From a bacterium (GTDB lineage Bacteria; Vulcanimicrobiota; Vulcanimicrobiia; Vulcanimicrobiales; Vulcanimicrobiaceae), in the NCBI GenBank assembly GCA_021778415.1, contig JAJYCL010000006.1, forward strand, positions 1 to 64,000: a DNA stretch of 64,000 nucleotides. The letters are read 5' to 3'. The notes beneath the pieces are model-generated. The model saw only the letters and a program-made list of their open reading frames with translations. It did not search any database and was not told the origin of the DNA. This document shows, one piece after another, positions 3,623 to 21,702 of this stretch. The position numbers were made by a program, and so were the translations under genes. How positions within the stretch are numbered: the stretch's first letter is position 1; every line of letters starts with the position of its first letter.

Positions 3623-4843
3623 ATGGAGCAGTTAAAAACTGCAACCATGGAGATTGCGCGACGCAATGCGCAAGAAGCCGTCGCACAATTCGATCTTATC
3701 GCCGTTCGCATCGATGCACGAGTTGGGGACGGTCCGATCCATCGGCTTGCATCCCTTGGAGTCGAATCCGACCTGTTTCTTCCGACCAACGATCTCGCCC
3801 GTTGCTTGAGCGATTCGCCTCCGCCACCGGAGATGCGCGGCACCTTTTTAGGGATGCCGCTTTCCGCCAATGGGAGTTGCATCGGGTATTTTCAATGCGT
3901 TGCTCAAACGCCAATCGGTTTTGCATTAGCGGCGAGAATCGAGCAGTGGAGTCTTTCCCTTGCCGATGCACTTGCATCGGCTCAAGCGACGCTTACGCTT
4001 GAATCATCGTCGAATGGGCGCCTTCTGATCGCCGACGACGATGCATCGATTCGCAAGCTCCTTTGCACCATCTTAGAGAAGGATGGCTTCACGGTTACTG
4101 CCGTTGCAAACGGATTGCTGGCGTATGAAACCGCACGTCGTGAGCGTCCCGATCTTATTCTTCTCGATTTTATGATGCCGATTTTAGACGGACGCGAAAC
4201 CGCGATGCGACTCAAGGCCGACGATGCAACAAAAGACATTCCCATTGTCATGGTGACGGGGCAAACCCTCATCGAAGATAAAGTTGCGGCACTTGAAGCC
4301 GGTGCTCAAGACTACGTCACCAAGCCGTTTGATGCGCGCGAGTTACTTGCACGCATTCATCAGCAACTTCGCTGGCGCAAACTCCTCTCCGATGATGCCG
4401 TACCATCGAAAGAGCCTGATCTCCAACCTGCGCCCGAAACTCCGATTCAGACCTCGACGAGCGGCGATTACTGGTCGCTCGCCATATCGGCGCAACAACA
4501 AGGTCGCTTGCGAGAAGCGCTCGCGTACTTTGTCCAAGAAGCGGAAACCTGCGAAGTGGCAAAGCAATTTGCCCGCGCAGCGATTGCCTTCCGTAGTGCA
4601 TCGGCCGTTGCCGGGCAACTGCAGAAAACCGATCTCTCCAATAAGCTCTTACGCCTGGCCGGAAAAATGTATCTTTGTTGGGGCGAGACATCGGACGACG
4701 GCAAGGCGATCCAAGAGGCGTACGTCAATGCTGCGCGTGCATTTCTTGCTGCCGGAAATTTGCAATTAGCGAAAAAATCGGTGGAATTTGCCGCGTCGTT
4801 TGATTCAGTTCTCGCAGACGATCGGCCAACGAAAATCTCGTGA
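3623..4843 (+). CDS. Response regulator with N-terminal sensory-like and C-terminal TPR-like regions
   Basis: This 406-residue protein has a receiver domain at about residues 132-250. It has an acidic cluster (138-140), phosphoacceptor Asp182 in LLDFMMP, Thr212 and Lys234 in the TKPF loop. Residues 1-125 resemble a GAF-type fold in composition but carry no clear motif. Residues 270-400 are helical, Ala-rich and TPR-like. There is no DNA-binding or enzymatic output domain, so it probably works by protein contact. It starts 2 bp after the barrel gene and its stop overlaps the PelF start, so it is translationally coupled within the Pel-like operon. It may stand in for the missing c-di-GMP receptor PelD. 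Confidence 0.75.
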   Translation: MEQLKTATMEIARRNAQEAVAQFDLIAVRIDARVGDGPIHRLASLGVESDLFLPTNDLARCLSDSPPPPEMRGTFLGMPLSANGSCIGYFQCVAQTPIGFALAARIEQWSLSLADALASAQATLTLESSSNGRLLIADDDASIRKLLCTILEKDGFTVTAVANGLLAYETARRERPDLILLDFMMPILDGRETAMRLKADDATKDIPIVMVTGQTLIEDKVAALEAGAQDYVTKPFDARELLARIHQQLRWRKLLSDDAVPSKEPDLQPAPETPIQTSTSGDYWSLAISAQQQGRLREALAYFVQEAETCEVAKQFARAAIAFRSASAVAGQLQKTDLSNKLLRLAGKMYLCWGETSDDGKAIQEAYVNAARAFLAAGNLQLAKKSVEFAASFDSVLADDRPTKIS

Positions 4844-6279
4844 CGCCCCTTCGCGTCTGCCTCTTGACCGAAGGGACGTATCCGTATGTACGGGGTGGCG
4901 TATCGACGTGGTGCAATGAGTTAATTCGCGGCCTCAGTGACGTGCAATTTAGCGTCTATGCCCTCATCGGGAATCCGGCTGCCTCGCTGGAATACGCGCT
5001 CCCGGAGAATGTCGAACGAGTTCTCTGCCTGCCGCTCTGGGGGCACGAGGCCGTCGACGAATACAACGGCCCGGACGTGCGCGGCAAACGAGATCGCTCG
5101 GTTCGCGCCTTACGCAGCGAATTTGTTCCCTTGTTTCAATCGTTTTTGCATGAAGTTCTTCGCGGCATGGAGCAAGCCGATCCACAAGCACTGATCCGCG
5201 ATATCGGTGAACTCTATCTGTATTTTCGGCGGCATGATTACGATTGGACGATGCGTCGCAGGGAAACGTGGGATGTCGCCATCGCCACCTTTCGCGCCCA
5301 ACCTTGGCATCGTCGATTCATGACATCGCTTGAAGCCATCGAACTCGTCCGGTCGCTCTATCGGTATCTTCTCCCACTAGCCATCGAACTTCCTCAGACC
5401 GATATCATGCACACGTCGGTATCGGGCCTCTGTGCAATCGCCGGCATCGCCGCAAAATATGCGCACAAAACGCCGCTCATCCTCACCGAGCACGGAGTGT
5501 ACTTGCGCGAACGGGTTCTCGGCCTAGCGCGCGGCGGATTTCCATTCTCCGATCGGTCGGTAAAAAAGAATCTTTTTTCGGCCATTGCTCGTGCAACGTA
5601 TGCCTGCGCCGATGTTATTGCACCCGTATGCACCTATAATACGACGTGGGAACATTTTTACGGTGTTCCCAACGACCGCATTACCGTCATCTATAATGGG
5701 GTTGACGAACATCGCTTTGAGGATCGCGATATTTGGCCGAACGTTCCAACCGTAAGTGCGGTGTTGCGAATTGATCCGCTTAAAGACGTGATTACGATGA
5801 TATCCGCGGCAAAATACGTACGTGATAAGCTCCCACAGGTACAATTCAACCTTTGGGGCCCGGTACATGATTTGGAATACGATCACGTATGCCGCGCACT
5901 CATCGCGGATTTGCACCTTGAGGAGACGGTACATCTTCGTGGCTCAACCCAAGATACGGTGAGTGCGTATTCCAATGCACATGTCGTCGCGCTTTCTTCG
6001 ATCTCCGAAGGTTTCCCATATTCCGTCATCGAGGCGATGATGTGCGCAAAGCCCGTTGTCGCAACGGATGTCGGCGGGATAAGCGAAGCCATCGGATCCT
6101 GGGGAACGGTCGTACCGCCCAAGCGTCCGGAGCGCTTCGCCGAAGCGTTGCTCACCTATCTCTCGAATCCAGAACATGCCCGAAGCATCGGCAAAGGAGC
6201 CCGCGCCTTCGCTCTCGAGCATTTTACGCAAACTCGCTTTCTGGCAAATTATCGGGAGTTGTACGCTCGTGTCGTTTGA
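4840..6279 (+). CDS. pelF: PelF-like exopolysaccharide glycosyltransferase (GT4)
   Basis: This 479-residue cytoplasmic glycosyltransferase starts at a GTG that overlaps the previous stop (GTGA). The N-terminus LLTEGTYPYVRGGVSTW is the PelF signature. The C-terminal GT-B half holds the nucleotide-sugar motif SEGFPYSVIEAM (the E-x7-E pair) followed by KPVVATDVGG. PelF in known Pel systems uses UDP-sugars to polymerise the Pel polymer together with the membrane protein PelG. The following gene is PelG, overlapping by 11 bp. Length and motifs fit the family well. Confidence 0.88.
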   Translation: MTPLRVCLLTEGTYPYVRGGVSTWCNELIRGLSDVQFSVYALIGNPAASLEYALPENVERVLCLPLWGHEAVDEYNGPDVRGKRDRSVRALRSEFVPLFQSFLHEVLRGMEQADPQALIRDIGELYLYFRRHDYDWTMRRRETWDVAIATFRAQPWHRRFMTSLEAIELVRSLYRYLLPLAIELPQTDIMHTSVSGLCAIAGIAAKYAHKTPLILTEHGVYLRERVLGLARGGFPFSDRSVKKNLFSAIARATYACADVIAPVCTYNTTWEHFYGVPNDRITVIYNGVDEHRFEDRDIWPNVPTVSAVLRIDPLKDVITMISAAKYVRDKLPQVQFNLWGPVHDLEYDHVCRALIADLHLEETVHLRGSTQDTVSAYSNAHVVALSSISEGFPYSVIEAMMCAKPVVATDVGGISEAIGSWGTVVPPKRPERFAEALLTYLSNPEHARSIGKGARAFALEHFTQTRFLANYRELYARVV

Positions 6280-7876
6280 CGATTTCGAACCCTTTGAAAC
6301 GCGAGATCGCGAAGTCGAAAGTGCGGCGCGCTCCATCCTTACACTCGCGCGTAGCGATCAATTCGGTCGCGGCTGGCGGCCAAAAGGGATCGATGAAATT
6401 GCCATTTTGCTTGAGTCGTTAGGGTACAGTCAGGATATTGTCGCCGAACTTTGGTACCCGGATCTTTTTGCAATGGCCCGCGATGTTTCGACGCTCATCG
6501 ATAAGTATATTAGCGATGAGGAGTTAAACGAACACAAAGAGACCCATTGGTTTATCCTTGCCTGCCGCGATTATGCGGCCGGCGCGCTCTACGCCGGCCC
6601 GTGGATTATCGCCGTCATTGGGTTGGCTATTTTCGGAGCATCACTCTGGTCGAGCCTTTCAACGCCGCTCCATCTTGCCACGGCTATTGCTCTGGGCGTC
6701 TTTTCCGCACAAATCATCAGCGGCTTCTTCTCGCAAGCCATTGCTCGACGACTGTCGTTTTATTTCGCGCAAGAGAACTACTCCCTCATGGAATGGACGA
6801 TGCGCCGCGTTATCGCGAGCGCCGTTCTTTCGATCTTCGCTGTCGGCGGTCTCTTCTGGGCGCTCTTAAGCCTTTCATACGGGCAACCGGATGCGGGCCT
6901 TGCTGCGGCGTTTTTCGTCGGCAGCGGACTGTTTCAAATATCGCTTGCCCCGTTATATACGATGCGGCGATTTCTTTGGATCATTGCCATCGCGTTGATT
7001 GCAAGCCTTGCCACCGGGCTCACCTTCATCATCTTCTTTGGGCGTCACGTTGAAGTTCCGTGGGAACCCGCGACTCTCGCCGCAGAAATCGCAATCATCG
7101 GCGCCACGGTCCTTGTTTTAACGCTTGCCTGGCTTTCGCGCAAAGCGCGCGAGGGCCATGTCACATCCGTTCCGCCGTCGCTTGCATCCGTCGTCAAGGC
7201 ATCGCTTCCCTATGCTATTTTCGGCGCGATGTATTTTGCGGCGATCGTCGCGGATCGCATTGCCGCCGGAATGGCTCTGGGCAACGGCACCTATCGATAC
7301 GCGGCCGGTTATGAACTGGGCGCCGATATTGCCGTTCTTGCGATGATTCCCGTCACCGGTCTCATTAACGTTATTTTGGAATCGCTTCCGCGGAGAATTC
7401 TTCGTGGAGCGACACTCGGTATCGAAGAAGCGGCACCGTTCGATCGCTCGATGCTGCGATTTTACCTAGGAAGTGTAGCAGCCTCGATGCTCGCCATTCT
7501 CATCGCCGTCGTGCTTGCCGAATACGTTGGGCAGGGCGTCCTTACCTCAAGCGCGCTTGGCGGAAATCCGGCTGATCGCACAGTTGCCTTCGATGTGCTC
7601 CGCATTGCCGTCGTCGGATATGGCACCGCGATGCTTGCCTTGCTCAATGTGCAACTGCTCTTTTTTCTTTCACGGCCCACAATTGCGCTCATCGCGGCGG
7701 GCGCCGGCCTGTTCATCAATGGAGCCTGGGGAGCGTATGTGGTGCTTACCGGTCAACCGTCAGAGCTCTGCGCCTGGGGATTGCTCATCGGAATGGGCAC
7801 GTTTACGATCATAAGCACCATTGGTGCCCTCAGCGCCATGCGCCACTTCACCTACGCCTACTACAGCGCGTATTAA
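6269..7876 (+). CDS. pelG: PelG-like polysaccharide transport membrane protein
   Basis: I place the start at the GTG at 6269, inside the PelF 3' end. An in-frame ATG at 6176 would overlap pelF by about 100 bp. The 535-residue product has about 12 hydrophobic segments from residue 100 onward, with PelG-like features such as an ALYAGPWI first helix. PelG is the inner-membrane flippase-like partner of PelF. A soluble, charged N-terminal stretch of about 90 residues precedes the membrane part. It contains helical segments such as IDEIAILLESLGYSQDIV. I do not expect this in the Pseudomonas protein, which is about 456 residues. Confidence 0.82.
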   Translation: MSFDDFEPFETRDREVESAARSILTLARSDQFGRGWRPKGIDEIAILLESLGYSQDIVAELWYPDLFAMARDVSTLIDKYISDEELNEHKETHWFILACRDYAAGALYAGPWIIAVIGLAIFGASLWSSLSTPLHLATAIALGVFSAQIISGFFSQAIARRLSFYFAQENYSLMEWTMRRVIASAVLSIFAVGGLFWALLSLSYGQPDAGLAAAFFVGSGLFQISLAPLYTMRRFLWIIAIALIASLATGLTFIIFFGRHVEVPWEPATLAAEIAIIGATVLVLTLAWLSRKAREGHVTSVPPSLASVVKASLPYAIFGAMYFAAIVADRIAAGMALGNGTYRYAAGYELGADIAVLAMIPVTGLINVILESLPRRILRGATLGIEEAAPFDRSMLRFYLGSVAASMLAILIAVVLAEYVGQGVLTSSALGGNPADRTVAFDVLRIAVVGYGTAMLALLNVQLLFFLSRPTIALIAAGAGLFINGAWGAYVVLTGQPSELCAWGLLIGMGTFTIISTIGALSAMRHFTYAYYSAY

Positions 7877-7907: not shown

Positions 7908-8345
7908 ATGCTCGGATTCGCACGAACCTTCGCACTTGGCATTTGGGTAGGTGGAATGCTCACCTTCGCCTTCATCTTTGCGCCGACGGCATTTGCCCAT
8001 ATTGGCCCCACTGCGGGATTTGCCGATACCATTGCTGCGAGCCTGAGTTCGCTGACGTATTTTGGTTTTGGCTGCGCGTTCATTGCCATCGTCCTCTCAT
8101 TCATCCTCGGCATACGCACAGTGAAAAACGTCGTGATTATGCTGGGATCGCTCATCGCAGCGATTGCCGGAATCATCGAACTCACAACCATCATCCCGAT
8201 CATGCAACGGACTCCGCTGCAAACTCCCGCCTATGAAGCGCTCCACCACACGAGTAGCGCCATCTACAGTGTTGCTCTCATCGCAGCGGCGACTGCTTTC
8301 GCAATCGCCGCTTGGGATTCACGCCGGGAGACTCACCTCGGCTAA
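7908..8345 (+). CDS. DUF4149-like small membrane protein
   Basis: The ATG at 7908 is preceded by an AAAGGA ribosome-binding site at good spacing. Upstream in-frame starts overlap pelG and are unlikely. The 145-residue product has four membrane helices, beginning ARTFALGIWVGGMLTF, in the style of DUF4149/TMEM205-like proteins of unknown function. It sits 31 bp after pelG and may be the last gene of the exopolysaccharide operon, though a role there is unproven. It ends with a 4-bp convergent overlap with the large adhesin gene. Confidence 0.6.
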   Translation: MLGFARTFALGIWVGGMLTFAFIFAPTAFAHIGPTAGFADTIAASLSSLTYFGFGCAFIAIVLSFILGIRTVKNVVIMLGSLIAAIAGIIELTTIIPIMQRTPLQTPAYEALHHTSSAIYSVALIAAATAFAIAAWDSRRETHLG

Positions 8346-11300
8346 GAGTTCGGACAAGCCGCCGTATCTTCGATGATCGTATAGGTGAGTTGCGACGTTG
8401 TCAGGCTTGCAAACTCGGTACCGATCGAGAGTTGAAGATTATTGAGGGTATCGTACGGAGCCGAGCGGGCTGAGTTAAACGGCCCGGTAGCGAGCTTGAG
8501 TTCCGGGTTGCCGGAGCCAATTACCGGGATCGTCGCGAAGGTTGAATTGTAATAGGTCAAACCGGCAACACCGGTCGTTGACCGAGATGGGTCCGTTGCC
8601 AACTGTAATTCATTCGTTTGACCGGGGAATGTCGATGCCGGATTATTATTGGTATCGACGCAGAGGACCCACGACGAGTGTGCCGAGGACTGTGCGTAGA
8701 CGGATGCGCGGATAACATCCTGGCCGACGGTTTGCGTTGAGGCCCCCGGGTTGCCAAGATCGATGGTCAAGCCGGAGAAGGCGCACGCCGAGCAATTCAC
8801 CGATGGCGTAGACCCACCGGGGCCCGGATTACTCGGATCGACGACAATCGTTAACCCGATGACATCGACGATTTTAATACGCGTATCGTTCGTCCATGCT
8901 TCACCCATCTTTGCGCCGCCCGGCGAAATCGTCGTCGGCCATTGGAACTCATCATTTTGAACGCCCGGAGCTGTCGCCGTAAACTGGATCGAAATGGTGC
9001 TACTCGCACCGATCGAGCACGAGCCGCCACCGATGACGATGGACCCATTCGTTCCGCCGGCGGTCGCTTGCGTCGTCGATACGACGGTGCAACCATACGC
9101 CGTACCGGAAATCGCAGCACCGCTCACACTCCACGGTGAAACACCGAGTTGCGTGGCCGAAAGTCCGCTGATATCGGTACCCGGAATGGTAATCGTTAAG
9201 CCGGTAATGTTCGTCCCGTTCGTGCTGTTATTTTTAATCGAATACACATACGTATTCGGGTCTCCGCTGATTTGCGGCTCGGTGTTCGTCGGTACGGCGG
9301 TGCCATTAATCGAGGCAAAGCCGCCGCTTCCCGATACCGGGACATTCGTGAGGGTGATGTTGCTATACGAGGTCCAGCCGCCGCCATTGGCGCCGTGAAC
9401 GGCAACACCCCATGTTGTGTTCGCAGTGCCCGCATTCGCAATCGTAAACGGCATGCTCATTTGGGTTCCCGGAGCAAGCGCACTCGGTTCGGTCGCTCCG
9501 CACTTTGCTACGGAGTTCGCCAAGGCACCTAACGGTGTGGTCGGCGGCGGAGTCGATTGGGCGCCGCCCGGTTGAATCGAGGTAAACTGCGCGCTACAGA
9601 GACCAAAATCGTAATAGTGGAAGGCACCTTGCGTAAATGTTCCAAGATAACTCCACCCAGGATTCGTCGGCGTCGCCGGATTGATCGTGTTACCCGTGAG
9701 GTATGCATTCGGAACTTCGACCAACACATTATCGATATAATCCGGGTTCGGATCGGACGACAGCGGCGTGTTCGTAAAGAGAACATCTTCGGTGAAATTA
9801 GTCGCGTTCGCGCCGACCGTTGATGGAGCAAACGAATAACTCATGAAGCCGCTATTGAGCGAATAGAGGCCCTGCGCTAACGAATCGACATTCAACCCAC
9901 CGGAACCGGCGGCAAACACGGGGACTGCTGCCGTTGCCGGCGTGATCGAGAATTGGAAGCCATTCCCCGAATTAGGATCTTGAATCGATGAAAGGGCAAT
10001 ATCGAGATACGTGAACGATTGCGCGACGGTACTTGCATCGAAATAAATCGTTTCCGTTCCGCCGGTTGCGATGCTGTGCCCGGCAGCAGCGCCGCTGATG
10101 CAGGTGTAGGCACCATTTAAGAATCCCGCCGGGCACGTGACGAGTTGCCAATTTCCCGTGCTTGCTGCATCAAGACCAATGTTGTAGAGCGAACCAGGCC
10201 CCGCAAAAGGTCCCGTCAATTCGAACGCAAGGGCATAAATGCGATCCGGCGTCCCGCCACTTGAGGTGTTGTGAACCGTGATCCCATAAATATTTTCATT
10301 GGTATTCGGGATCGTGTACGGCGTATTAAGATTATAGGCGGCTTGTGCGAAATTGAGTTTGTAATAATGCGCCTCGCCACCATTAAATGCGCAGCCGCCG
10401 CCGCCCGAACACTCGCCGACAATCGCAAGTGAGCCCGTTCCCGAATGCGAACTCGTGCCGTCCGTAAAGTAGACCGGAGCCCAAGCACTTTGCGAATTAA
10501 TCGTCGACCAGGTTAGGCCGTCTTGCGGGAGGATGGAGGTATCGCCGGGGCAAGCCCCGTTCGGAAGACCATTACACGCAGAGGCAGAGGCATAATAAAA
10601 TGTCATCGACGGAATCTCAAGCGAATCGCCGGGCTTGAGCACGGTCGAGGAGAGCGCCGGATCGGCCTCTATATAACACTCGCCCGTATTAGAAACCGTC
10701 GGGCCGCTACAGAAATCCGAAAGGTTCCAAGAGTTCCCGTTGCTATCGGAGGCAACGGAGGTACATTTCGGCGAGCACGACGCAAGCGTAAAGCCGTTGA
10801 GTGACGCCATGACTCCGTTACCCGCACCGGCGGTGGCCAAAAATGCTCCATCGGAACCGCGCGGGTTCCCCGTGGTAAACAGCAGGCCGCGTAAGGGGTC
10901 GCCATTGCCGATACCATAATAATTGTCGCCGGTGTTCACGAACTTCAATCCGGAAACGACGCTTGCTCCCGGTGTCACCACAAGCGACGCCGAGTACGTA
11001 CCGGCCATGGCAACATCGAATTCCGTCAGCGATTGATAGCCCTTCACTTGGAAGGACTGCGAAGCAACGACCGCTTTGAGGGTGTTATCGTAGAGCGTGC
11101 CCGTGAGAATTTTCGACGCATACCCACCGGCAGATTGAATTGCGCCGTTAAAATTAAAGGTATGCGCCTGCGGGCCACCTGCGGTAAACGTATTGCTCGC
11201 GGCGACGAAACCGGTCGGATCGGCCAATGTCCAGGTGTATGTATGATTGAGCAGATTTGCAACCGTGGCGAAGTTCACGCCGGAAGCCGATTGTTCCGAT

Positions 11301-12409
11301 CCATCATCCCAAGCCACGACTGACGACGAAATGCCCGGTGGAAGTTGCGGCAGCGGCGATGGGTTTGCAGCCGTTCCATCGGGCTTTACCGAGAGCGTAA
11401 TACCCGCTCCGCCGGTGATCGCAACTTGCACGGTTCCCAAGCGCTTTTTTGCCGTCGTATCAAAGATGCCAACAACATACGTTCCCGGTGCATAGCTCAC
11501 GGAGAGCGGCCAGGTCACCGACATCGTTCCGCCCGAGGAGACGATGCCGACCAACGAGTTGGGATTGCAGAGCGATCCTGTGCCGGTGGTCGGATACGAT
11601 CCTTGTGCCGGCGCGGAGAAAATACAATGCGGGGCGATCGACGTGGATTCTACATAGACCACATAGCCGTCGCCGGGCGTGAGGTTCGTTGCGTAGATGT
11701 ACGCATCACTGACGGAATTGACATCATATTGATAGGATTCTTGCGAGTGGAAAGAATCCTGATAGACTTTGAGTGCAAAGGTTTGACCGGCGCTGGCATA
11801 GACCACCGTTTGCCACTGATTGGCTGTCACATTGAAGACCGCGAAGACCCAAATGCCCGCAGACGAGAGCGTTGTCGTGTGCCCCGGCCCGGCGCCGCCG
11901 CCGTGGGTTCCGCCGACAGCCGTCGCTACCGATGAATTTGCCGCAATATAATAATCTTGATAGGTACTTCCAGCTGGAATATTTTGCGCGTTCCAATTGA
12001 CTTGGCAACCGACGACGAACAACGTCGACGTAGAACCCGAACACTGTGCACTTCCGGAGCCGGCAACGGCAATGGTCGAGCCGTCGGCAGACATCGGACG
12101 CAATGCCGGGCGACCCGGGGCAACCGTGTTGGCAAACGTACGCATCGGCAGTGCCGGTAGCATCGAAAGCGGCACGCGCGTCCCTGGAGCAACGGCGCCG
12201 ACGCGAGAACCGGAGACGGGCATTCCAATCGGCGGTAACGTTGCCGCCGGAGCGAGCGTTGGGCGCGAAATCGGTGGAAGAATCGGTGAGACAATCGGAT
12301 GCGTCGGTATCCCGTTCGGCGGCGCGGCAGCACTTACAGCCACGGCAGCAACGCTGGCAAAAACGGCGAGTGCGGCTAAGACCGAGCGAAGCGATTTCAT
12401 CGGTCTCAT
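8342..12409 (-). CDS. Large secreted adhesin-like protein with pilin-like C-terminal domain
   Basis: The product has about 1355 residues. The ATG at 12409 lies one base after the upstream stop, suggesting coupling; ATG 12400 is an alternative. A signal peptide is followed by a Pro/Ala-rich linker and a long series of Ig-like, Ser/Thr/Gly-rich beta domains, some with possible disulfide Cys pairs (ASCSPKCTS, STGSLCNPNS). I recognise no enzymatic motif. The last 170 residues resemble the small subunits upstream: LTIDLGNPGAS parallels their FGNV/FGSV motif, and the protein ends near a TYTI strand. That suggests a tip adhesin carrying an assembly domain. This assignment is inference. Confidence 0.6.
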   Translation of the reverse strand: MRPMKSLRSVLAALAVFASVAAVAVSAAAPPNGIPTHPIVSPILPPISRPTLAPAATLPPIGMPVSGSRVGAVAPGTRVPLSMLPALPMRTFANTVAPGRPALRPMSADGSTIAVAGSGSAQCSGSTSTLFVVGCQVNWNAQNIPAGSTYQDYYIAANSSVATAVGGTHGGGAGPGHTTTLSSAGIWVFAVFNVTANQWQTVVYASAGQTFALKVYQDSFHSQESYQYDVNSVSDAYIYATNLTPGDGYVVYVESTSIAPHCIFSAPAQGSYPTTGTGSLCNPNSLVGIVSSGGTMSVTWPLSVSYAPGTYVVGIFDTTAKKRLGTVQVAITGGAGITLSVKPDGTAANPSPLPQLPPGISSSVVAWDDGSEQSASGVNFATVANLLNHTYTWTLADPTGFVAASNTFTAGGPQAHTFNFNGAIQSAGGYASKILTGTLYDNTLKAVVASQSFQVKGYQSLTEFDVAMAGTYSASLVVTPGASVVSGLKFVNTGDNYYGIGNGDPLRGLLFTTGNPRGSDGAFLATAGAGNGVMASLNGFTLASCSPKCTSVASDSNGNSWNLSDFCSGPTVSNTGECYIEADPALSSTVLKPGDSLEIPSMTFYYASASACNGLPNGACPGDTSILPQDGLTWSTINSQSAWAPVYFTDGTSSHSGTGSLAIVGECSGGGGCAFNGGEAHYYKLNFAQAAYNLNTPYTIPNTNENIYGITVHNTSSGGTPDRIYALAFELTGPFAGPGSLYNIGLDAASTGNWQLVTCPAGFLNGAYTCISGAAAGHSIATGGTETIYFDASTVAQSFTYLDIALSSIQDPNSGNGFQFSITPATAAVPVFAAGSGGLNVDSLAQGLYSLNSGFMSYSFAPSTVGANATNFTEDVLFTNTPLSSDPNPDYIDNVLVEVPNAYLTGNTINPATPTNPGWSYLGTFTQGAFHYYDFGLCSAQFTSIQPGGAQSTPPPTTPLGALANSVAKCGATEPSALAPGTQMSMPFTIANAGTANTTWGVAVHGANGGGWTSYSNITLTNVPVSGSGGFASINGTAVPTNTEPQISGDPNTYVYSIKNNSTNGTNITGLTITIPGTDISGLSATQLGVSPWSVSGAAISGTAYGCTVVSTTQATAGGTNGSIVIGGGSCSIGASSTISIQFTATAPGVQNDEFQWPTTISPGGAKMGEAWTNDTRIKIVDVIGLTIVVDPSNPGPGGSTPSVNCSACAFSGLTIDLGNPGASTQTVGQDVIRASVYAQSSAHSSWVLCVDTNNNPASTFPGQTNELQLATDPSRSTTGVAGLTYYNSTFATIPVIGSGNPELKLATGPFNSARSAPYDTLNNLQLSIGTEFASLTTSQLTYTIIEDTAACPNS

Positions 12410-12410
12410 A

Positions 12411-13136
12411 TTAGTAATAAATCGTATAGATCGCATTGGAACTATACGCCCCGCCGGGAACGGCAGCTGGAATAGTGAGCGTCAAATCAACGCAATAGGT
12501 TACGGTTCCGCCACTCGTCGCAAGAGTCGCCCACTGACCGCCATTATCCGAATAGACGGTAAATGGCGTCGCCGTCGGATTTGGCGCGGTAACGTAGGTA
12601 TTATTGGCGAGATCTCCACCCGGGAAAAGGCTCCCCGAGAAATCGTTCGACAAACCATGCTTAAGCTGCCAATACGTCTTTGTCGTATGAACGGTCACAT
12701 GGTAGGGGCAGGTAAAAACCGTCGTCGTTCCGCCCGTTGCATTGAGCGTAACAAGCGTTTGATCGCTGTACAGGAGCGTGCCCATGGGATTGGGCGAAAC
12801 TTCAGCTTCGATGCGTACCGCTTTTTGATTTTGCGCAACGAGCGTGCTACCGATGTTGACATTCGGAGAATCGAAATGAGCGCTCGAGCCAACCTTACGG
12901 AAATGCACATGCTCAACAATACCGACTTGTTTTGCGGTGCCGACAATCTCCGGTCGAGCCGCCGATGCGATGGCCGATTGCGAGGCGTTATACGGCAACG
13001 GTGCCGGCGTTACGTTGATAACGATCGTCACGGCGATCTGATCTTGCTGCGAGATAAACGCGAGAGCTCGTGCGCCGACGACGACACCGATCGCGATGAT
13101 CCCGAAGAGGAAGAACCAACGTCGCGCGTTCATCAT
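12411..13136 (-). CDS. Secreted pilin-like subunit, hypothetical
   Basis: The start at 13136 overlaps the upstream stop (ATGA). The 241-residue product has one N-terminal hydrophobic segment (WFFLFGIIAIGVVVGARALA) acting as signal or anchor, then a beta-rich domain. It ends PGGAYSSNAIYTIYY. That resembles the C-terminal strand of spore coat U/Csu-type chaperone-usher subunits (G-x-Y followed by alternating hydrophobics and a penultimate aromatic). NVNIGSTLVAQN may match the FG-x-V motif of its neighbours. I recognise no named domain. It lies between two other secreted proteins with essentially no gaps, so they are likely one transcript. Confidence 0.55.
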   Translation of the reverse strand: MMNARRWFFLFGIIAIGVVVGARALAFISQQDQIAVTIVINVTPAPLPYNASQSAIASAARPEIVGTAKQVGIVEHVHFRKVGSSAHFDSPNVNIGSTLVAQNQKAVRIEAEVSPNPMGTLLYSDQTLVTLNATGGTTTVFTCPYHVTVHTTKTYWQLKHGLSNDFSGSLFPGGDLANNTYVTAPNPTATPFTVYSDNGGQWATLATSGGTVTYCVDLTLTIPAAVPGGAYSSNAIYTIYY

Positions 13137-13810
13137 TTCGCTACCACCGTATAGACAACCCAAACGTAATATGCGCCCGTGCTTGCCAATGCCGGAACGT
13201 GAAGTTCATAATCGTAGTAGAAATCCGAGAGCGCCGTCGTTGACGTCGCAATCGGCGAAGGATACGTCGTGTACGTAATCGTTGCGGGAATCGCAAAGTT
13301 CGGTTGCGCCGGCGAGACGGCGTTGCTCGTCTTATAGAAGGGCAGACCCGGCGAAAAGCCCGTATTCGAATCGGCGGGGCTTCCGCTGGTGGATTTCACG
13401 TAGAAGACATCTTGCTGAATGGGCTGCGATGTCGTATCCGTTGAGTTGTAAAAATCCGCCGCGCCTTCACCGAACAGATTCACCCCATTGGGATCCGTCG
13501 AAAAGACGTTGATGTGCGCCGCATATTTATAGAGATAATTCTTAGCGGTAAGAACGCTGCCAAAATCAACGGCTCCGCCGCCAAACGAGGCATCGGGGCC
13601 GTGGACCGGCGACGGTTGCGTTCCGAACACTGCGGGGACCGCGCCAAAGCCGGTGGCATAATTTGGCGTGAGCGTAATTTTGACGAGCGCTTGGGTATTC
13701 CACCTCACGATCGTCGTGCCGGTGGCCGCAAAAAGCGGGTGCGACGAGCAGATGAGAGCGAGCAGCGTCGCAGCTACGTACCCCCATGTTTTCCGTCGAA
13801 TCCCCGTCAT
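13133..13810 (-). CDS. Secreted pilin-like subunit, hypothetical
   Basis: The chosen ATG at 13810 has an AGGGAG site about 10 nt upstream. A GTG at 13819 is possible but too close to that site. The 225-residue product has a signal peptide ending about LFAATG. The mature start, IVRWNTQALVKITL, parallels VKWNTQAVGSLVLV in the next subunit upstream in the cluster. It also has VDFGSV, and ends in the hydrophobic strand AYYVWVVYTVVAK. The two proteins therefore look like diverged paralogues. I infer a structural subunit of a surface fibre. No database family is assigned. Confidence 0.55.
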   Translation of the reverse strand: MTGIRRKTWGYVAATLLALICSSHPLFAATGTTIVRWNTQALVKITLTPNYATGFGAVPAVFGTQPSPVHGPDASFGGGAVDFGSVLTAKNYLYKYAAHINVFSTDPNGVNLFGEGAADFYNSTDTTSQPIQQDVFYVKSTSGSPADSNTGFSPGLPFYKTSNAVSPAQPNFAIPATITYTTYPSPIATSTTALSDFYYDYELHVPALASTGAYYVWVVYTVVAK

Positions 13811-13854
13811 ATCGCTCACACTCCCTGTGCGCTTTTGTGCCGTATGTAGAATCG

Positions 13855-14655
13855 TTACTTCACGGTGAAGGCGATTTCGCCGCCCGTCTCCGTTGCGCCA
13901 CCGTAATCGATAGTGGCAATGGCCTGGTAGGTGCCCCGAGAAAGCTTTTTGCCGTGCAGATCGATCATGAGATCCCCTCCGCGTTCGACGAGTAGGCCTT
14001 CCTCCATCGGATACTGTTGAATCGTTCGACCGTTTTGCTGGACTTGCACGCTTCCACGAAGATAGACGTGCATGTTGCCGGTATTTTTGAACAGGACGCG
14101 ATAGTCTTGGCCTTGCTTAGTCGTGAAGCTGCTCATCTTCGTAATCGCACCATCAACTTTTTCCGTTCCCGGAATCGTCATGTAGATCTTCGCTGCCACG
14201 CGAGCCGCGAAAGCGAAGGAGTTTCTGCTCGGTCCACGCGTCGGCCGTGTTTGAAAGAAGACGACTCCTGCGTATTCTCCCGAGAGCGACGACGAGTGCG
14301 GAACGACGATCGTGAACTGAACTTGTTGTGCGCTGGCCGCCTTGAGATCGAATTCACGTGGCCGGATCGAGACCCATCGCATGATCGAGTAGGGGCGCGT
14401 TCCGGGTTTTTGAAACTCGTAGTTTCCGCTTGTGGTGACCGTGAAATCTCCGAGTGAGGCCTGGATGTGGGTGAGACCGGCGCCATTGTTGCGAACCGTA
14501 ATCGGGAAGCTGTAGTTCGTGCCGGGCGTTGCCGAGAACTCGAACTTTGCCGGTGATACGGTGATCCCGATAGCATCCCCGACTGCGTTGCGCGGAGCGC
14601 CGATGCAGAGAGCGAGGAGTAACGCGATCGATCCAATTCTGCGTAATCGTCTCAT
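13855..14655 (-). CDS. Periplasmic Ig-fold chaperone-like protein (PapD/DUF916-like)
   Basis: I choose the ATG at 14655, just after AAGGTGG, which gives a standard signal peptide. The 266-residue product begins GITVSPAKFEFSATPGTNY, followed by FPITVRNNGAG, then EFDLKAASAQQVQFTIVVP and LSGEYAGVVFF. This is the arrangement of a PapD-like or DUF916-like Ig domain. A second Ig-like domain, with YRVLFKNTGNMHVYLRGSV, fills the rest. No transmembrane anchor is visible after the signal. Its place among putative pilin subunits and a large barrel suggests a periplasmic subunit chaperone. An alternative is a peptidoglycan-binding surface protein. Confidence 0.6.
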   Translation of the reverse strand: MRRLRRIGSIALLLALCIGAPRNAVGDAIGITVSPAKFEFSATPGTNYSFPITVRNNGAGLTHIQASLGDFTVTTSGNYEFQKPGTRPYSIMRWVSIRPREFDLKAASAQQVQFTIVVPHSSSLSGEYAGVVFFQTRPTRGPSRNSFAFAARVAAKIYMTIPGTEKVDGAITKMSSFTTKQGQDYRVLFKNTGNMHVYLRGSVQVQQNGRTIQQYPMEEGLLVERGGDLMIDLHGKKLSRGTYQAIATIDYGGATETGGEIAFTVK

Positions 14656-14726
14656 AGCCACCTTGTTCGCCGCGGGATGCGCGGGGCATCCCGCGGCCGA
14701 CAAGTTCAGGACGTTCCTCGGATTCT

Positions 14727-15440
14727 TTAGAGCAGGGTGAGCGTGTACGTGACGGTGACGGTTTGGGCACCCGATGGCGCGCTCGCTCCGAGCACCAGTT
14801 CGTAATCCTCACCGAGGTTCGCCGGGGTCGCGGCGGTGAACGCGTTGGTGTTGGTGGTATTCAGCGTGAACGCGGTCGACGCGCCGCTCGCGAACACCGG
14901 GTTGCCGCCGCTACCACACGCCGTCGCCGACGTATTCGTTACCGCAGCTGCGCGGGCCGAAGCCGTCGCCGGAAGCGAGGCACCGTTGGCGAACGGGAAC
15001 GATGCCGATCCGTTAGGATACGAGCAAAGTTCGAAATTCGTACCGGCTGGAATACCTGCGGTCGCTTGTTCGGAGACTTTCCATCCGGTCGTATCGTTTG
15101 TCACAACTTGCGAATCAACCGCATTAATTTCCATGCAATCGGTTGCAAATGTACTATCCGGGGTTACGTTCCCGAAATTCACCGTTCCGGACGCCGCTTC
15201 GGTATCCGACGCGGTACATGCGCCGGCACCACCATTGAGCTGCGGGAAAATTGTTTCCGCACCGGCATTATGGCTTCCGACCGGGGCACCATTGTATTGA
15301 GTCACCAAAACGAGGCTACCAACGGCCTGCGTGTTCCATTTTACCGTAACGTTGCCGGTAAGGGCGGCGTTTGCTTTTACCGCCGGAGTCAAGGTAAGTG
15401 CCGCGACTGCTGCGAGCACCGCAAATTTCTTGAGATTCAT
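14727..15440 (-). CDS. Putative major pilin-like subunit
   Basis: The ATG at 15440 starts MNLKKFAVLAAVAALTL and has AGGA and GAAAGGA sequences upstream. A longer frame to 15506 is less likely. The 237-residue product has a cleavable signal (ANA-AL). The mature domain begins with VKWNTQAVGSLVL, has TVNFGNV in the middle and four to six Cys residues that could pair. It ends GAQTVTVTYTLTLL, very like the C-terminal strand of Csu/spore coat U pilins. It is the first subunit gene after the putative usher, with a 175-bp leader of its own, which would suit an abundant major subunit. Confidence 0.6.
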   Translation of the reverse strand: MNLKKFAVLAAVAALTLTPAVKANAALTGNVTVKWNTQAVGSLVLVTQYNGAPVGSHNAGAETIFPQLNGGAGACTASDTEAASGTVNFGNVTPDSTFATDCMEINAVDSQVVTNDTTGWKVSEQATAGIPAGTNFELCSYPNGSASFPFANGASLPATASARAAAVTNTSATACGSGGNPVFASGASTAFTLNTTNTNAFTAATPANLGEDYELVLGASAPSGAQTVTVTYTLTLL

Positions 15441-15615
15441 CGTCCTGAAGTGTCCTTTCACCATGTTTACGCGAGATTGCCGTCCTTGGCAGAGGGGGCG
15501 AGTCACCTTACTATTATCGGTGTTCTCGGCAATCGGTAAAGCCTAAATCGGCCCAAGTCGGTAAAGAACCTGTCGCCGGGGCGTTAAGAACGTGCTAACC
15601 ACGGGTGAAGCCGCG
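15441..15615 (-). promoter_or_regulatory. 175-bp gap between usher-like gene and major subunit gene
   Basis: This is the only sizeable gap inside the six-gene surface cluster. It holds two near-direct copies of CTTTACCGA about 27 bp apart on the minus strand and a possible AT-rich -10 region (GATAATAG). I found no convincing -35 and no terminator hairpin. A separate promoter or processing site for the downstream subunit genes is plausible but not shown. Confidence 0.3.
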
Positions 15616-18600
15616 TCACCGGATGATAATCGGCACGCGCTCCTTGCCCGAAATCAGCGTTCCTTGGAAGGGCAAGCGCCGCACGGTTACGCTAAAGACA
15701 TAGACGCGGCCCACGACGGGTTTGCTTAAGCTGGTCACCGTGCCGTCCTCCCAGGCAATGCGAGCCGATGTCCCGACATCCACGAGGAAGCGTGCGTGGA
15801 CTTGGACCGCGGCCCCAATGACGACATGCGACGGGCGCGTGGAGACGATTACCAAGGCCATCGTGGGATCGACGATGAGGCTCGATCGCGCCGTCGTCGT
15901 GCCCGAATCCGTCGTCACCTCGGCTGTCACCGGAACTTTTCCGGCCTTTTCCGCATTCGGAACGACGATTTCGGCAAGCCAGCCCCGCCCGGCAACATAG
16001 TGGGCCTTCACGCTCCGACCGAAGGCGCTCACCACAACGGCGTGGGCATCTTTGGAAGCGGAAACAAAGGCCTCCGTACTTCCCCGTGGCGGCAATCGCG
16101 GCTCACTGAGGTGCAACGAGGCCGTTGTCTGCGCTGATCCGCCTAGGAACGAAAAAACGACTTTCTTGATTTCATGGCCGACAAGGAAGAGCAGGCCGTC
16201 TTTGTGTTCGCGAGCGGTGAGATCGACGACCACATTGGGGCTGATCTGCCCGGTCTGATCCGGGACGGTCTCAGGATCGACGGACAGCGTATAGGTGCCC
16301 GGGGGAAGATCATCGATGATGAACGAGCCATCGTCGTTGGCAATGGCGGCGTGATCGCCGGGCTCGGCGACGACGTAGGAATTGACGACGCCGCCCTTGT
16401 GCGTCCGAGCCAAGCTTGCATCGAACACGACCTTCCCGGCGATCGAGCCCAAGGGCTCGGCCTCGAAATTGACTTCCGTGATCTTGCCATTGCTCACGGT
16501 GACTTTTCGGGTCAGATCGGCCTTGGGGAACTCGGCAAAGGCCGGCACCGTGTTTTCGATCACCGTGACGACATGATCTCCGGGAGCGAGACGACCGAAG
16601 CCGTAATTCCCCTGCGGATCGGTGACCGAATACTGCCCGCCGTCGACGCGAACTTGCACGTTTTGCAACGGCACCAATCCGCCGGAGGAATCATGCGCAT
16701 AGATATGCCCACCGATCCCGCCGAAATTGCCGACACGGAAATAAACTTGCCCCGTTTGCCCGCCCTGCAACGTAACGGAAACGACCGGTTGATCGACGGT
16801 GAGACCGGGTGGAATCGATGTCGTTTCCACACGAACTTGATGTGTTCCGGGACTGACGAAATTGAATTGGAAATTTCCCTGCAGATCGGTGCGCTGCACG
16901 GTAACGCCGTCAAGAATGACGGCAACATTGGCAACGCCGCCCGGCGCAAAACTGAGTAGACCCGGATTATCACCTAGATCATTGACAACGCGGCCGGTGA
17001 TAATCGCCGGCAAATGCGGATCGATACGCCCCGCGACCGCACCGTTTCCAAATGCAAACGGAGCGTTGAATTGAATGCTAAATATTTTGGTCTTGCCGTT
17101 GGACGTTGGATTTAACGCATCAACAAGAGATTGCACGCCGTACGCCGCCTGCACGGAGAGAACCGGCGAAATCCGGCGAGCAATGGAAATCAATGGGGTG
17201 CGTTGTGTTGCGTCGCTTGTGAGCGAACGTGTGCGCATGACGGCATACGTCAATGCGTACGTCGTTTTTCCCATCGTGCGATTTAATCCGTAATTCGCAA
17301 CGGATTGATTCGTGGTGCCCAATTGCTGACTCATCTGACGCAACCACTGTTGGTTCAGACTCGCCGCAAACGGCCCGATCTGCCGCTGCACTTGCAGCGA
17401 ATAGCCAATCCCCGCAAGCGTTGTTCCGCTTAATTGCGTCGAGCGAGAAATTTGCGAACCGACGCTCACAAATCCCATATGAATGGGCATGGCAAGCTGG
17501 GATGTCACCCCACCGATCCACTGCGTTGCAGAATTACTCAAGAGTTTTTGCGACTGCAAACCGATGGAATACGTCATGCGATGCAGCGGGCCGAAAATGT
17601 TGAAACCGAACCGTTGCTGGGCCGTCGTCGTGCCCGAATACGCTGTCGTATCGAAGGTTGCATTCAGCGACGTCGTTGTGCGTCCGTTCGAACCGCGTAG
17701 TGCAAAATCAATCGCGTTATCATAGGGCGCTTCACCTGCGCCTAAAATGAGATAGCGCGCTGGGATGCGTCGATAATTGATCGTATACCCATTATTGCCG
17801 ACGCCGGAATCAAAACGCAATGCATACGCCAGCCCAGAAAGATTCGCATCGGGCGCTTGACGTTTCTGAAATGCAAACTCTCCGACGATCGATGCTTTAC
17901 CGCGCGGCTCGGCAAAGCCGAAAAGAGCGGTCTTCGAAGGGCCGGTCTGCGTGCCACCCGAGCCGTCGGTCAAGCCGAATTCAATGAGCCGCTGCCCAAT
18001 CAGACGCCGACCGCGCACTCCGAGCAGATGAATCAGTTCCTGATTCACGCCGTAGGTCGGCCCACCGAAAAGCGCCAGATCCCCAGTCCCGAAGGGAACC
18101 GTCAACGATGGCCCGCGCAGGGTCGTCCCGACCGGCAGCAGGCCGAATACCGAGCTCGTCACCGAGCCGTAATCCACCTCGAAGTGCGGAGTGGAGAAAG
18201 AAATCGTCGCAAGGCCCGTCGTCGTGCCGTTATTCGAGAACCCGAATGGCAAGCGGAGATCTGTCGTCGTCGAGCCGGTCCGTCGCGAGATTTCGGCGAG
18301 CAATCCAACTGCCGAGGTCGTCGAGTTCTGGCTCGTCGTCGTCGGAGTCGCCCCCGGCGAGGGAAATGCCGAAAGGGTCGTCTGCGTCAGCTGGCTACCA
18401 AAGGAAAGCGAGCCCGTGAGATTGAGCTGTAGCGGCCCGCCGCCGTGAACCTTCGGCCCGGGCGTGGGCGTCGGGCTCGGACTCGGGCTCGGCGATCCCA
18501 GAGGCTGCGGCCCTGGAGAAGCGCTTGGTAAAGCCAGCACGGGAACGGCGTAGGCAAGCAACGCTCGCGCCGCGCGAACGTTGAGCCCCGAAGCCACGGC

Positions 18601-18675
18601 CAAAACGGCCAGACCCAGGCCAAGCACTTGCAAGGCTCGACCAACTAAGCGAACGTTTGTTCGGATATCCTTCAT
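15616..18675 (-). CDS. Large outer-membrane barrel protein with C-terminal Ig-like domains, putative usher
   Basis: The 1019-residue product has a signal or anchor segment (residues 15-48) and a Pro/Ser/Thr spacer (51-75). A long barrel-like region follows (about 80-550), with many short Gly/aromatic beta strands. Three carboxypeptidase-regulatory or SdrB-type Ig-like domains come next, at about 555-640 (GRVVNDLGDNPG), 650-735 (GGIGGHIYAHD) and 743-823 (GSIAGKVVFDAS). The remaining C-terminus is also beta-rich. Classical fimbrial ushers carry their plug inside the barrel and small domains at both ends, so this layout differs. The usher call rests on context with chaperone-like and pilin-like genes. 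It could instead be a secretin-independent surface anchor. Confidence 0.5.
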   Translation of the reverse strand: MKDIRTNVRLVGRALQVLGLGLAVLAVASGLNVRAARALLAYAVPVLALPSASPGPQPLGSPSPSPSPTPTPGPKVHGGGPLQLNLTGSLSFGSQLTQTTLSAFPSPGATPTTTSQNSTTSAVGLLAEISRRTGSTTTDLRLPFGFSNNGTTTGLATISFSTPHFEVDYGSVTSSVFGLLPVGTTLRGPSLTVPFGTGDLALFGGPTYGVNQELIHLLGVRGRRLIGQRLIEFGLTDGSGGTQTGPSKTALFGFAEPRGKASIVGEFAFQKRQAPDANLSGLAYALRFDSGVGNNGYTINYRRIPARYLILGAGEAPYDNAIDFALRGSNGRTTTSLNATFDTTAYSGTTTAQQRFGFNIFGPLHRMTYSIGLQSQKLLSNSATQWIGGVTSQLAMPIHMGFVSVGSQISRSTQLSGTTLAGIGYSLQVQRQIGPFAASLNQQWLRQMSQQLGTTNQSVANYGLNRTMGKTTYALTYAVMRTRSLTSDATQRTPLISIARRISPVLSVQAAYGVQSLVDALNPTSNGKTKIFSIQFNAPFAFGNGAVAGRIDPHLPAIITGRVVNDLGDNPGLLSFAPGGVANVAVILDGVTVQRTDLQGNFQFNFVSPGTHQVRVETTSIPPGLTVDQPVVSVTLQGGQTGQVYFRVGNFGGIGGHIYAHDSSGGLVPLQNVQVRVDGGQYSVTDPQGNYGFGRLAPGDHVVTVIENTVPAFAEFPKADLTRKVTVSNGKITEVNFEAEPLGSIAGKVVFDASLARTHKGGVVNSYVVAEPGDHAAIANDDGSFIIDDLPPGTYTLSVDPETVPDQTGQISPNVVVDLTAREHKDGLLFLVGHEIKKVVFSFLGGSAQTTASLHLSEPRLPPRGSTEAFVSASKDAHAVVVSAFGRSVKAHYVAGRGWLAEIVVPNAEKAGKVPVTAEVTTDSGTTTARSSLIVDPTMALVIVSTRPSHVVIGAAVQVHARFLVDVGTSARIAWEDGTVTSLSKPVVGRVYVFSVTVRRLPFQGTLISGKERVPIIIR

Positions 18676-18808: not shown

Positions 18809-20137
18809 ATGGACCTGCTGGGGAGTGCGTCCTTTGTTCTTCGGAACTTGGACGTCACGCAATCGAATAAGGCAAAAGATGTGCGCGCGTTAGCCAGTGG
18901 CTTACGCGTGCAATCTGCTGCTGATGACCCCAGTGGCCTTGCGATCTCACAGACGATCCAGGCCAAGGTCGACGGGCTGCAACAAAGCGTGCAGAACGTA
19001 CAAGATGCCAACAATGCGATGAATCTCGCACAAAGCACCCTCGGTCAAGTCACGACTGTTCTCCAGCGCATTCGTACCTTGATCGTCGAGGCTCGTTCAG
19101 ATTTGAATTCCGCGAATGATTTGCAGAATATTCAATCCGAGATTCAACAATTGTTGCAAGAGATCGACACGATCTCAAGCCGAGTGACATTCAACGGGCT
19201 GCAGCTTTTCAGCGGGCAATTTGATACGTCACAAGGCACCGCCGCATCGATCGTCGCGATTCCAGCGCCTATTCTCAATCCTGATGGTTCGGTCCCCAGC
19301 CCAACCATTACGAATGCAGACGGCCTCGGAAATCCTGGACCGATGCTCACAACCCCACAACTTATCGGAGGCAATTTCCAAGCGGGCATCGTGGTTATGC
19401 AATCGGCTCCGAGCGCAAATCCAATCGACGACTTGTCTGGACCGCTGGGCGGCCCAGGGACGCAATTCGTCATCAATGCCTATTCAAATTCCAGCAATGG
19501 AACTGGAAATCAGTTCACGTATAACACAAACGTTCCATATAACTCGGGAGTGATGACGAACACGGCATTCCCAAATCCAATAGGCGCGTTGCCATACATC
19601 AACACCATCACCCTATCCAACACAACGGCGAACGATCCGGCGTCCGAAGTCGCATTTATTACGACGGCCGCGACACAGGCGGCGGGCGGACAAGCCCTCA
19701 CCGTAAATGACGGAGGCCAAGAAGGCACCACCGTCAGCATCGCCCTTCCAACGATCAACACGAGTGCTCTCGGTATTTCCGGAATTTCGGTCTTGGCACC
19801 GCAAACTCAAAATATCATGGGTGCTATCGTCGGTCAGCAGTCGAGCAATATGCTTGCAGCAGTTGATGCAGAATATCGCGTCGATGCAGCGTTACAACAA
19901 ATCTCCGCAGCAGAAGCAACCATCGGTGCACAAACCGTTGCCTTGAGTTCAGACGCAAGCAACGATCAAATCACCATTCTCAACGAAACCGCCGCGATGA
20001 GCGCAATTCGCGACACGAACGTCGGGCAAACGGTCACAGATCTTACCCTACAAAACCTCACGCAAAGCGCGGGGAACGCCGTTCTTGCCCAACTTCAAGT
20101 CAACCAAGACCGCGTCACGGCAATGCTCTTCAAGTAA
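18809..20137 (+). CDS. Flagellin
   Basis: This 442-residue protein has the conserved flagellin ends. The N-terminal D0/D1 region contains LRNLDVTQ, ASGLRVQSAADDPSGLAIS and the coiled-coil heptads that follow. The C-terminal region contains SAIRDTNVGQTVTDLTLQN and a VLAQLQVNQDRVTAML end. The middle (about 140-345) is variable and Ser/Thr/Asn-rich, as in surface-exposed domains. The GGAGG site lies 14 nt before the ATG, which is unusually far, but there is no in-frame upstream alternative because TAG directly precedes the start. No other flagellar gene is in the window, so filament assembly genes must lie elsewhere if it is functional. Confidence 0.88.
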   Translation: MDLLGSASFVLRNLDVTQSNKAKDVRALASGLRVQSAADDPSGLAISQTIQAKVDGLQQSVQNVQDANNAMNLAQSTLGQVTTVLQRIRTLIVEARSDLNSANDLQNIQSEIQQLLQEIDTISSRVTFNGLQLFSGQFDTSQGTAASIVAIPAPILNPDGSVPSPTITNADGLGNPGPMLTTPQLIGGNFQAGIVVMQSAPSANPIDDLSGPLGGPGTQFVINAYSNSSNGTGNQFTYNTNVPYNSGVMTNTAFPNPIGALPYINTITLSNTTANDPASEVAFITTAATQAAGGQALTVNDGGQEGTTVSIALPTINTSALGISGISVLAPQTQNIMGAIVGQQSSNMLAAVDAEYRVDAALQQISAAEATIGAQTVALSSDASNDQITILNETAAMSAIRDTNVGQTVTDLTLQNLTQSAGNAVLAQLQVNQDRVTAMLFK

Positions 20138-20350: not shown

Positions 20351-20415
20351 AACGTGCGGTCACCGCGCGGGGCGTCCCTCTTCTGTTCATGCTATACGAG
20401 AGGGGGTGTCCGCTC

Positions 20416-21702
20416 ATGCCATTTCACGAAGGCTTCGTTTCCGAACTCGTTGGCCGCAAAGCGACCGTCGACGGTTTGGCGATAGGGCGCGTCTCGGATT
20501 TTCTCGTCGCTAAACCCGATGATGTTTTCCCACAGGTCGACGGCTTTGTTATCGCGACCTCGCAGGGCCCCCGCTTTGCGCCGATTGATTCGATCCGCGA
20601 AATCGATGACCACGGCACCGTCGCACTATCGACCCCTCCGCACGAGCCGGCGTTACATGACGACGATGCTCTTTATCTCATTGCCGATCTGCTCGACAAA
20701 CAGATCGTCGATGTCGACGGCCGGAAAGTCGTGCGCATCAACGATATCGAGCTTGCACAAACGGGCGGACGCCTGCGCATTGTCGCAGCCGATGTCGGCG
20801 TTGCCGGCCTGATGCGTCGCCTCGGACTCAAATCATTCGGCAAGCGCTTCACCCCTTTCATCTATGACCGTATTCCGCGGACAATGATCGCCTGGGATTC
20901 GGTCGCGCCGATCAGCGATAAGAATCCATCGCAGGTTCATCTTTCTGTCTCGGAATCCAAGCTTGCCCGATTGCACCCGAGTGATCTCGCGGAAATCATC
21001 GGCGATCTCTCCTCGAACGAAGCGGCAGCCGTGGTGCGCCAGCTCTCGGATGAACGCGCCGCCGATGCACTCGAACATCTCGATGCGGAAACGCAAATCC
21101 GATTGATCGACGATCTCGGCACACAGCGCGCAGCGGACATCATCGAGGAAATGGATGCCGACGACGCCGCCGATCTCCTCGCCGAACTTCCCGAGGAGAA
21201 ACAAAGCGCACTCCTTGCGGAAATGGATGAGTACACGGCCGGCGAGTTGCGCACGCTGGTGAAATACGATGAAGATACTGCCGGCGGTTTAATGACGACG
21301 GATTACACTTGGATTTACCCTCATCGCACCACGGAAGCGACGATCCAGAAAATTCGCGAGATTGCTCCGACATCGGAATTCATCTATTACCTCTACGTCA
21401 TCGATAAGCATGATCGCTTACTCGGCTTGCTCACGCTACGCGATCTCTTGCTCTCGTTACCCACAGCCTTTATCGGCAAGATTATGCGCACGGATTTTGT
21501 GACGCTACATCCGGATACGGATGCGAAGGATGCCGCAGCAATGATCGCTCGCTACGATCTCCTCGCCTTACCGGTCGTCGATGATGATGGAAAAATGCTC
21601 GGCATCGTCACCGTGGATGACGCCATCGATGCCATCATGCCCGATGATTTACGACGAAATCTTCCGCGCATTACCGCTCGACGCCACAAGACGCCGGCGT
21701 AA
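20416..21702 (+). CDS. PRC-barrel / MgtE N-domain / CBS protein lacking the transporter domain
   Basis: The ATG at 20416 follows a GAGGGGG site. The 428-residue product has a PRC-barrel-like region (about 88-165), a superhelical MgtE N-terminal domain (184-285, with repeats such as LSDERAADALEHLD) and two CBS motifs (290-410). The MgtE signature YDEDTAGGLM sits at 284-293. Full MgtE proteins then have five membrane helices forming the Mg2+ pore. Here the protein stops 20 residues after the second CBS and has no hydrophobic segment. It is therefore likely a soluble Mg2+- or nucleotide-sensing regulator. Control by an M-box supports a role in Mg2+ homeostasis. Its transport partner is not in the window. 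Confidence 0.8.
   Translation: MPFHEGFVSELVGRKATVDGLAIGRVSDFLVAKPDDVFPQVDGFVIATSQGPRFAPIDSIREIDDHGTVALSTPPHEPALHDDDALYLIADLLDKQIVDVDGRKVVRINDIELAQTGGRLRIVAADVGVAGLMRRLGLKSFGKRFTPFIYDRIPRTMIAWDSVAPISDKNPSQVHLSVSESKLARLHPSDLAEIIGDLSSNEAAAVVRQLSDERAADALEHLDAETQIRLIDDLGTQRAADIIEEMDADDAADLLAELPEEKQSALLAEMDEYTAGELRTLVKYDEDTAGGLMTTDYTWIYPHRTTEATIQKIREIAPTSEFIYYLYVIDKHDRLLGLLTLRDLLLSLPTAFIGKIMRTDFVTLHPDTDAKDAAAMIARYDLLALPVVDDDGKMLGIVTVDDAIDAIMPDDLRRNLPRITARRHKTPA

Follow-up and report, generated by a model that had tools for sequence, protein, structure and literature searches.

Ushers normally have an N-terminal domain as well as a plug inserted into the barrel. Chaperone-usher (CU) pili are known from the Proteobacteria, the Cyanobacteria, and Deinococcus-Thermus (PMC4654587). 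Described WxL clusters consist of WxL and WxLIP proteins, with small and large WxL proteins paired with one WxLIP, and the WxL partner is predicted to receive a strand from the WxLIP (PMC10599100). A literature search for Eremiobacterota in combination with chaperone-usher found no reports. Here we describe a six-gene cluster from a Candidatus Eremiobacterota genome (2.59 Mb, 95.6% complete) that probably, at roughly 70%, represents a CU-like pathway for surface assembly in these bacteria, lying outside the known clades.

Gene layout and conservation of the cluster

The window, i.e., the whole stretch of 64,000 nucleotides that was analysed (contig C26), carries six consecutive genes on the minus strand. 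The g6 gene (15616..18675) encodes a usher-like protein of 1019 aa with a signal/anchor segment, a Pro-rich linker, a beta barrel, and Ig/CarboxypepD-like C-terminal domains. It is followed by g5 (14727..15440, 237 aa), a putative small surface subunit, g4 (13855..14655, 266 aa), a two-Ig periplasmic chaperone-like protein with a PapD/WxLIP fold, g3 (13133..13810, about 225 aa), a putative small surface subunit homologous to g5, g2 (12411..13136, 241 aa), a third small beta-rich secreted protein, and g1 (8342..12409, 1355 aa), a large putative adhesin. The original prediction had described a minus-strand run of six secreted proteins with two overlapping or 1-bp junctions, and this run is real. 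All six are open frames with a hydrophobic, signal-peptide-like stretch at the N-terminus, as read from the sequence; g3 and g2 overlap in an ATGA, and g2 and g1 are spaced by 1 bp. Because g6 is separated from g5 by a gap of 175 bp that holds a promoter-like match, it may form a separate transcription unit. The g4 gene is present as a single copy in the genome. A search of all six proteins against NCBIfam returned no family, phmmer with g5 gave no match, sequence searches of the PDB using g4, g6, and the subunit profiles gave no useful one, and a PHROGs search with three of the six proteins gave one match, on g6, to a family of unknown function.

Computation across related genomes has also shown the conservation of the cluster. 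The gene set is clustered in some 25–30 of them, mostly with the same order and sometimes shuffled; the original prediction had proposed gene order in other genomes as a check. Of 60 relatives, 20 have g4 homologues; among the closer of these, the genes beside g4 are homologous too and keep their order. At least 14 distinct loci have the complete order g6-g5-g4-g3-g2-g1 and six (L034, L036, L109, L110, L112, and L113) have g6-g5-g4-g1-g3-g2; L044 and L111 are shuffled in other ways. The contiguous recurrence of the set in many genomes shows that the six-gene run is not a matter of chance. The genome that carries L109 has a second locus, L111 (G110:C11:304000-323900), with a rearranged gene order and different neighbours, so that positional co-inheritance alone does not explain the linkage. 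In L111 there are two g4 genes, each preceded by a g5-like gene, and then g1 and g6; the two g4 genes are possibly two dedicated chaperones.

Several neighbouring genes were also recorded. A flagellin gene (18809-20137, plus strand; Pfam Flagellin_N, 1.8e-30) lies divergent from g6, a position that it retains in at least 20 related loci; the genome as a whole has four matches to flagellin as well as FliF-family genes. Beside this flagellin gene, and conserved there too, a gene (20389-21702, plus strand) encodes a protein that combines PRC-barrel, MgtE_N, and CBS domains but has no MgtE transporter part. Just beyond g1, the region 4840-7876 (plus strand) contains a PelF-like glycosyltransferase (DUF3492) and, beside it, a multi-membrane-span protein without a Pfam match, which we take to be PelG-like. 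This PelF-like/PelG-like pair is also found near the cluster in L024, L025, L036, L047, and L061.

The chaperone-like protein and the barrel protein

The AF2 model of g4 contains two Ig domains (mean pLDDT 86.5). In Foldseek searches of the PDB, the best folds were those of the Enterococcus faecium WxLIP (9i1y and 9i25, 3e-12), followed by CfaA (1e-9), CsuC (2e-9), FimC (1e-8), and PapD (1e-7), the CU chaperones being matched with a TMt of 0.5–0.65 and E-values of 1e-9 to 1e-7. Comparison by hhalign with the CU chaperones of sister genomes and FimC gave 91.6% (E 8e-7) as against 0.5% for a reversed CU-chaperone profile used as control, the E-values in these g4 comparisons being those of one pair, uncalibrated against a database. 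Both results agree with the earlier assignment of the Ig protein as chaperone-like, and on its model g4 would provide the two-Ig periplasmic chaperone of PapD fold that belongs to a CU pathway. Pfam PapD_N matched neither g4 nor any other protein in the genome. WxLIP_PGBD was matched weakly by 11 of 11 members of the g4 family (best 2e-7), the match of the g4 in the window being weak and below the cut-off; the HBD of WxLIP had no match in g4, and the AF2 model shows no C-terminal membrane helix. The original prediction had named a match of the Ig protein to a peptidoglycan-binding family as a point against it. This is half the case: the weak WxLIP_PGBD match is there, but WxLIP itself has a PapD-like fold.

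Two lysines of g4, K37 and K156, are invariant in the family and align, in a sequence alignment only, with R8 and K112 of FimC, the classical cleft residues. Cleft residues of the R8/K112 type for anchoring a subunit C-terminus thus appear to be present in g4. The archaic anchor Arg of CsuC (Arg89 type) is not conserved in the alignment. A G1-like strand with alternating hydrophobics is predicted at residues 146–160 (14176..14220, minus strand), and F149, R152, K156, and Y158 within it are invariant. Residues of about 140–150, before strand G1, have low pLDDT in the free AF2 model, as would be expected for a strand that becomes ordered upon binding. The strand insertion predicted for WxLIP is a precedent for such a strand in g4 (PMC10599100).

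The AF2 model of g6 (pLDDT 77.8, pTM 0.51) has a predicted outer-membrane barrel at residues 82–543 (17047..18432, minus strand), followed by a chain of Ig-like domains. A test for a 24-strand barrel gave 24–25 long strands by DSSP of the model, with FimD ushers at ranks 1–7 of the Foldseek list for the PDB (8e-17 to 2e-14), PapC close behind, a TM to ushers of at most 0.49, and no sequence match for the barrel. Residues 552–735 (16471..17022, minus strand) match the usher CTD1-CTD2 domains by hhalign (residues about 594–733). This C-terminal region gave 92.4% (E 5.2e-7) against sister-genome ushers and FimD, and full-length g6 gave 96.6% (E 5e-10) against ushers with 0.5% for the reversed usher profile. 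The source of the signal is the C-terminal domains, not the barrel, whose own profile was negative against ushers (2.6%) and against the 700-aa barrels of distant relatives described below. Comparison with single usher sequences instead of the usher alignment was weak, at most 35%. By these profiles g6 appears to carry usher CTD1 and CTD2, in line with the suggestion that the barrel protein is usher-like; the match could also reflect a common transthyretin-like fold, and Pfam CarboxypepD_reg was found on g6 at 2e-11. The usher N-terminal domain is absent from g6, in which residues 29–78 form a Pro-rich, low-confidence linker leading straight to the barrel, and the AF2 model has no Ig-sized insertion between barrel strands that would represent a plug. 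The Pfam Usher family (PF00577) had no match in the window or its genome. Among sister genomes, PF00577 was above the cut-off in G009 and G036, and PF00345 in G009, G028, G029, G034, and G036.

Subunit-like proteins, the large putative adhesin, and a proposed route of assembly

The g5 and g3 proteins are homologous (98.5%, E 2.5e-15 by hhalign, with 0.3% for the reversed g3 profile). In both families a pattern of alternating residues, G-x-V-T-V-K-W-N-T-Q or (T)GxVTVKWNTQ, is conserved directly after the signal peptide, and a VTYTL-like strand is present at the C-terminus. In g5 the mature N-terminal strand, LTGNVTVKWNTQ (15327..15362, minus strand), is a candidate donor strand, and the sequence pattern fits subunits with an incomplete Ig fold and an N-terminal donor strand. 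The donor role is not certain because g1 has a strand resembling it upstream of its subunit-like domain. No match to a pilin family was found for the small subunits. The g2 protein is kept within the conserved cluster and has the same general pattern, but profile comparison detected no homology to g5/g3; against Csu-type subunits it gave a very weak full-length match (11%, E 0.003 by hhalign). The g1 protein is kept as a cluster member at 24–43% identity. Its C-terminal domain (8345..8797, minus strand) matches the combined g5+g3 profile by hhalign (about 91%, E 1e-6, with 0.1% for the reversed profile), so that, at the level of computation, g1 would be a large adhesin, as had been predicted for the 1355-residue protein, with a C-terminal subunit domain that recalls two-domain adhesins and large WxL proteins.

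The following route of assembly may be proposed. All six proteins would be exported to the periplasm via Sec, where g4 would hold the subunits, namely g5 and g3, possibly also g2, and the g1 C-terminal domain. It would lend its G1 strand to the incomplete Ig fold of the subunit, with K37 and K156 anchoring the subunit C-terminus, and would then hand the subunits to the g6 barrel through the C-terminal Ig domains of g6. There the chaperone strand would be replaced by the N-terminal strand of the next subunit (TGxVTVKWNTQ in g5/g3), and a fibre or short polymer would grow outward via the pore with g1 as the large adhesin. Strand donation, polymerisation, the pore route, and adhesion are all inferred.

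Relation to described systems and to distant variants

Like CU systems (FimC/FimD, CfaA/CfaC, CsuC/CsuD), the locus combines in one gene cluster a two-Ig PapD-like periplasmic protein, a barrel with two usher-like domains on its C-terminal side, small subunits that are secreted by Sec and bear an N-terminal strand, and a large protein ending in a subunit domain. It differs from them in that Pfam Usher and PapD_N find no match and that g6 has neither the usher N-terminal domain nor a plug, and also in the extra C-terminal domains on g6, the 1355-aa adhesin, and subunits that match no pilin family. With the WxL/WxLIP clusters of Firmicutes (DUF916-DUF3324, csc) it has in common the g4 fold, nearest to WxLIP, and the combination of small proteins with one large protein bearing a C-terminal small-protein domain. 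Unlike these clusters, it has a g4 without a membrane helix, no Pfam WxL match, and a barrel protein, and it sits in a genome encoding outer-membrane barrels. True Csu-type CU loci (L074-L078) occur in sister Eremiobacterota separately from the six-gene cluster. They have the same general layout and belong to the same phylum, but they match Pfam Usher and PapD_N and sit elsewhere in the genome, so that the six-gene cluster is not their local version. Two classifications were rejected, namely membership in the Csu/spore coat U group, since separate true Csu-type loci exist in sister genomes, and filing as WxLIP, in view of the missing WxL domain and membrane helix.

The main rival explanation, which we regard as unlikely, is a diderm WxL/WxLIP-like complex in which g4 is the lasting partner of WxL-like domains in g5, g3, g2, and g1, g6 serves as outer-membrane anchor or for display, and no polymerisation takes place. 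The best Foldseek matches of g4 are indeed WxLIP structures and not CU chaperones, all members of its family match WxLIP_PGBD, and in WxL clusters, too, a single WxLIP accompanies WxL proteins of small and large size (PMC10599100). However, g4 has no C-terminal membrane helix, Pfam WxL (PF13731) was above the cut-off in none of 41 genomes and is absent from the cluster, and the set includes a barrel with usher-like C-terminal domains, whereas the clusters described in PMC10599100 are made up of WxL and WxLIP proteins. The cluster is not classed as WxL/WxLIP, since searches for the WxL domain and for the WxLIP membrane helix were negative. It is less probable still that g6 is an unrelated porin or exporter with Ig/CarboxypepD repeats, the small proteins being ordinary proteins secreted to the surface with the help of a holdase in the periplasm. 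In Foldseek the g6 barrel matches porins and barrel-only usher structures to about the same degree, and its profile is negative against ushers, whereas the strand count near 24, the lead of ushers in the full-length ranking, the profile match of the C-terminal domains, and the steady linkage with PapD-fold and subunit-like proteins argue against this reading.

That the cluster is a divergent branch within the archaic (Csu/spore coat U) CU clade, which the original prediction had offered as an alternative, is very improbable. The chaperone folds nearest to g4 include CsuC and CfaA, but PF00577/PF00345 loci are found separately in sister genomes, the cluster has no such matches, and it is without the archaic Arg anchor, the usher N-terminal domain, and the plug. 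Assignment to the classical, alternative, or archaic clade was not made since the usher N-terminal domain, the plug, and the Pfam signatures were sought and not found. The cluster is thus likely CU-like but outside the known clades, because it has no Pfam Usher or PapD_N match, no N-terminal domain or plug, and Csu-type loci are separate; the prediction of a new or very distant pathway agrees with this, its roles holding computationally.

Distant relatives of g4 have also been found (profile match 99.8%). In L037-L042 they adjoin subunits of 170–200 aa and a barrel of about 700–770 aa, and the last domain of these 700-aa barrels is related to the C-terminal domain of g6 (96.7% by hhalign). In L114 and L115, elsewhere in the phylum, subunit-like proteins are found with a g4-like protein and a protein of 870–1020 aa matched by the g6 profile. 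The arrangement in L037-L042, L114, and L115 is the subunit-chaperone-usher layout, which speaks for the CU-like reading. Profile comparison of the N-terminal domain of the 700-aa barrels with the usher N-terminal domain was negative (2.4%), and a plasmid search with a distant g4 relative gave no match. Long repeat proteins (457–1056 aa) are present in L040 and L037, and their last part resembles the adjoining small subunits.

A distinct CU variant in Eremiobacterota would widen the known range of CU systems, and if a usher does without its N-terminal domain and plug, one would have to ask how recruitment and gating are achieved. Since g4 shares its fold with CU chaperones as well as with the WxLIP of Gram-positive bacteria, a common origin of both systems can be tested. 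As a tentative view, held at somewhat below even odds, the cluster may be a further branch of donor-strand assembly, with a plugless usher lacking the N-terminal domain and WxLIP/PapD-type chaperones, which together with the distant Eremiobacterota variants (700-aa barrels, L114, and L115) connects diderm CU pili and monoderm WxL/WxLIP as one superfamily. Likely functions are also provided for proteins that are unnamed in curated family libraries. Eremiobacterota are a barely studied phylum, and the cluster looks like an unrecognised, very distant adhesive-fibre machine.
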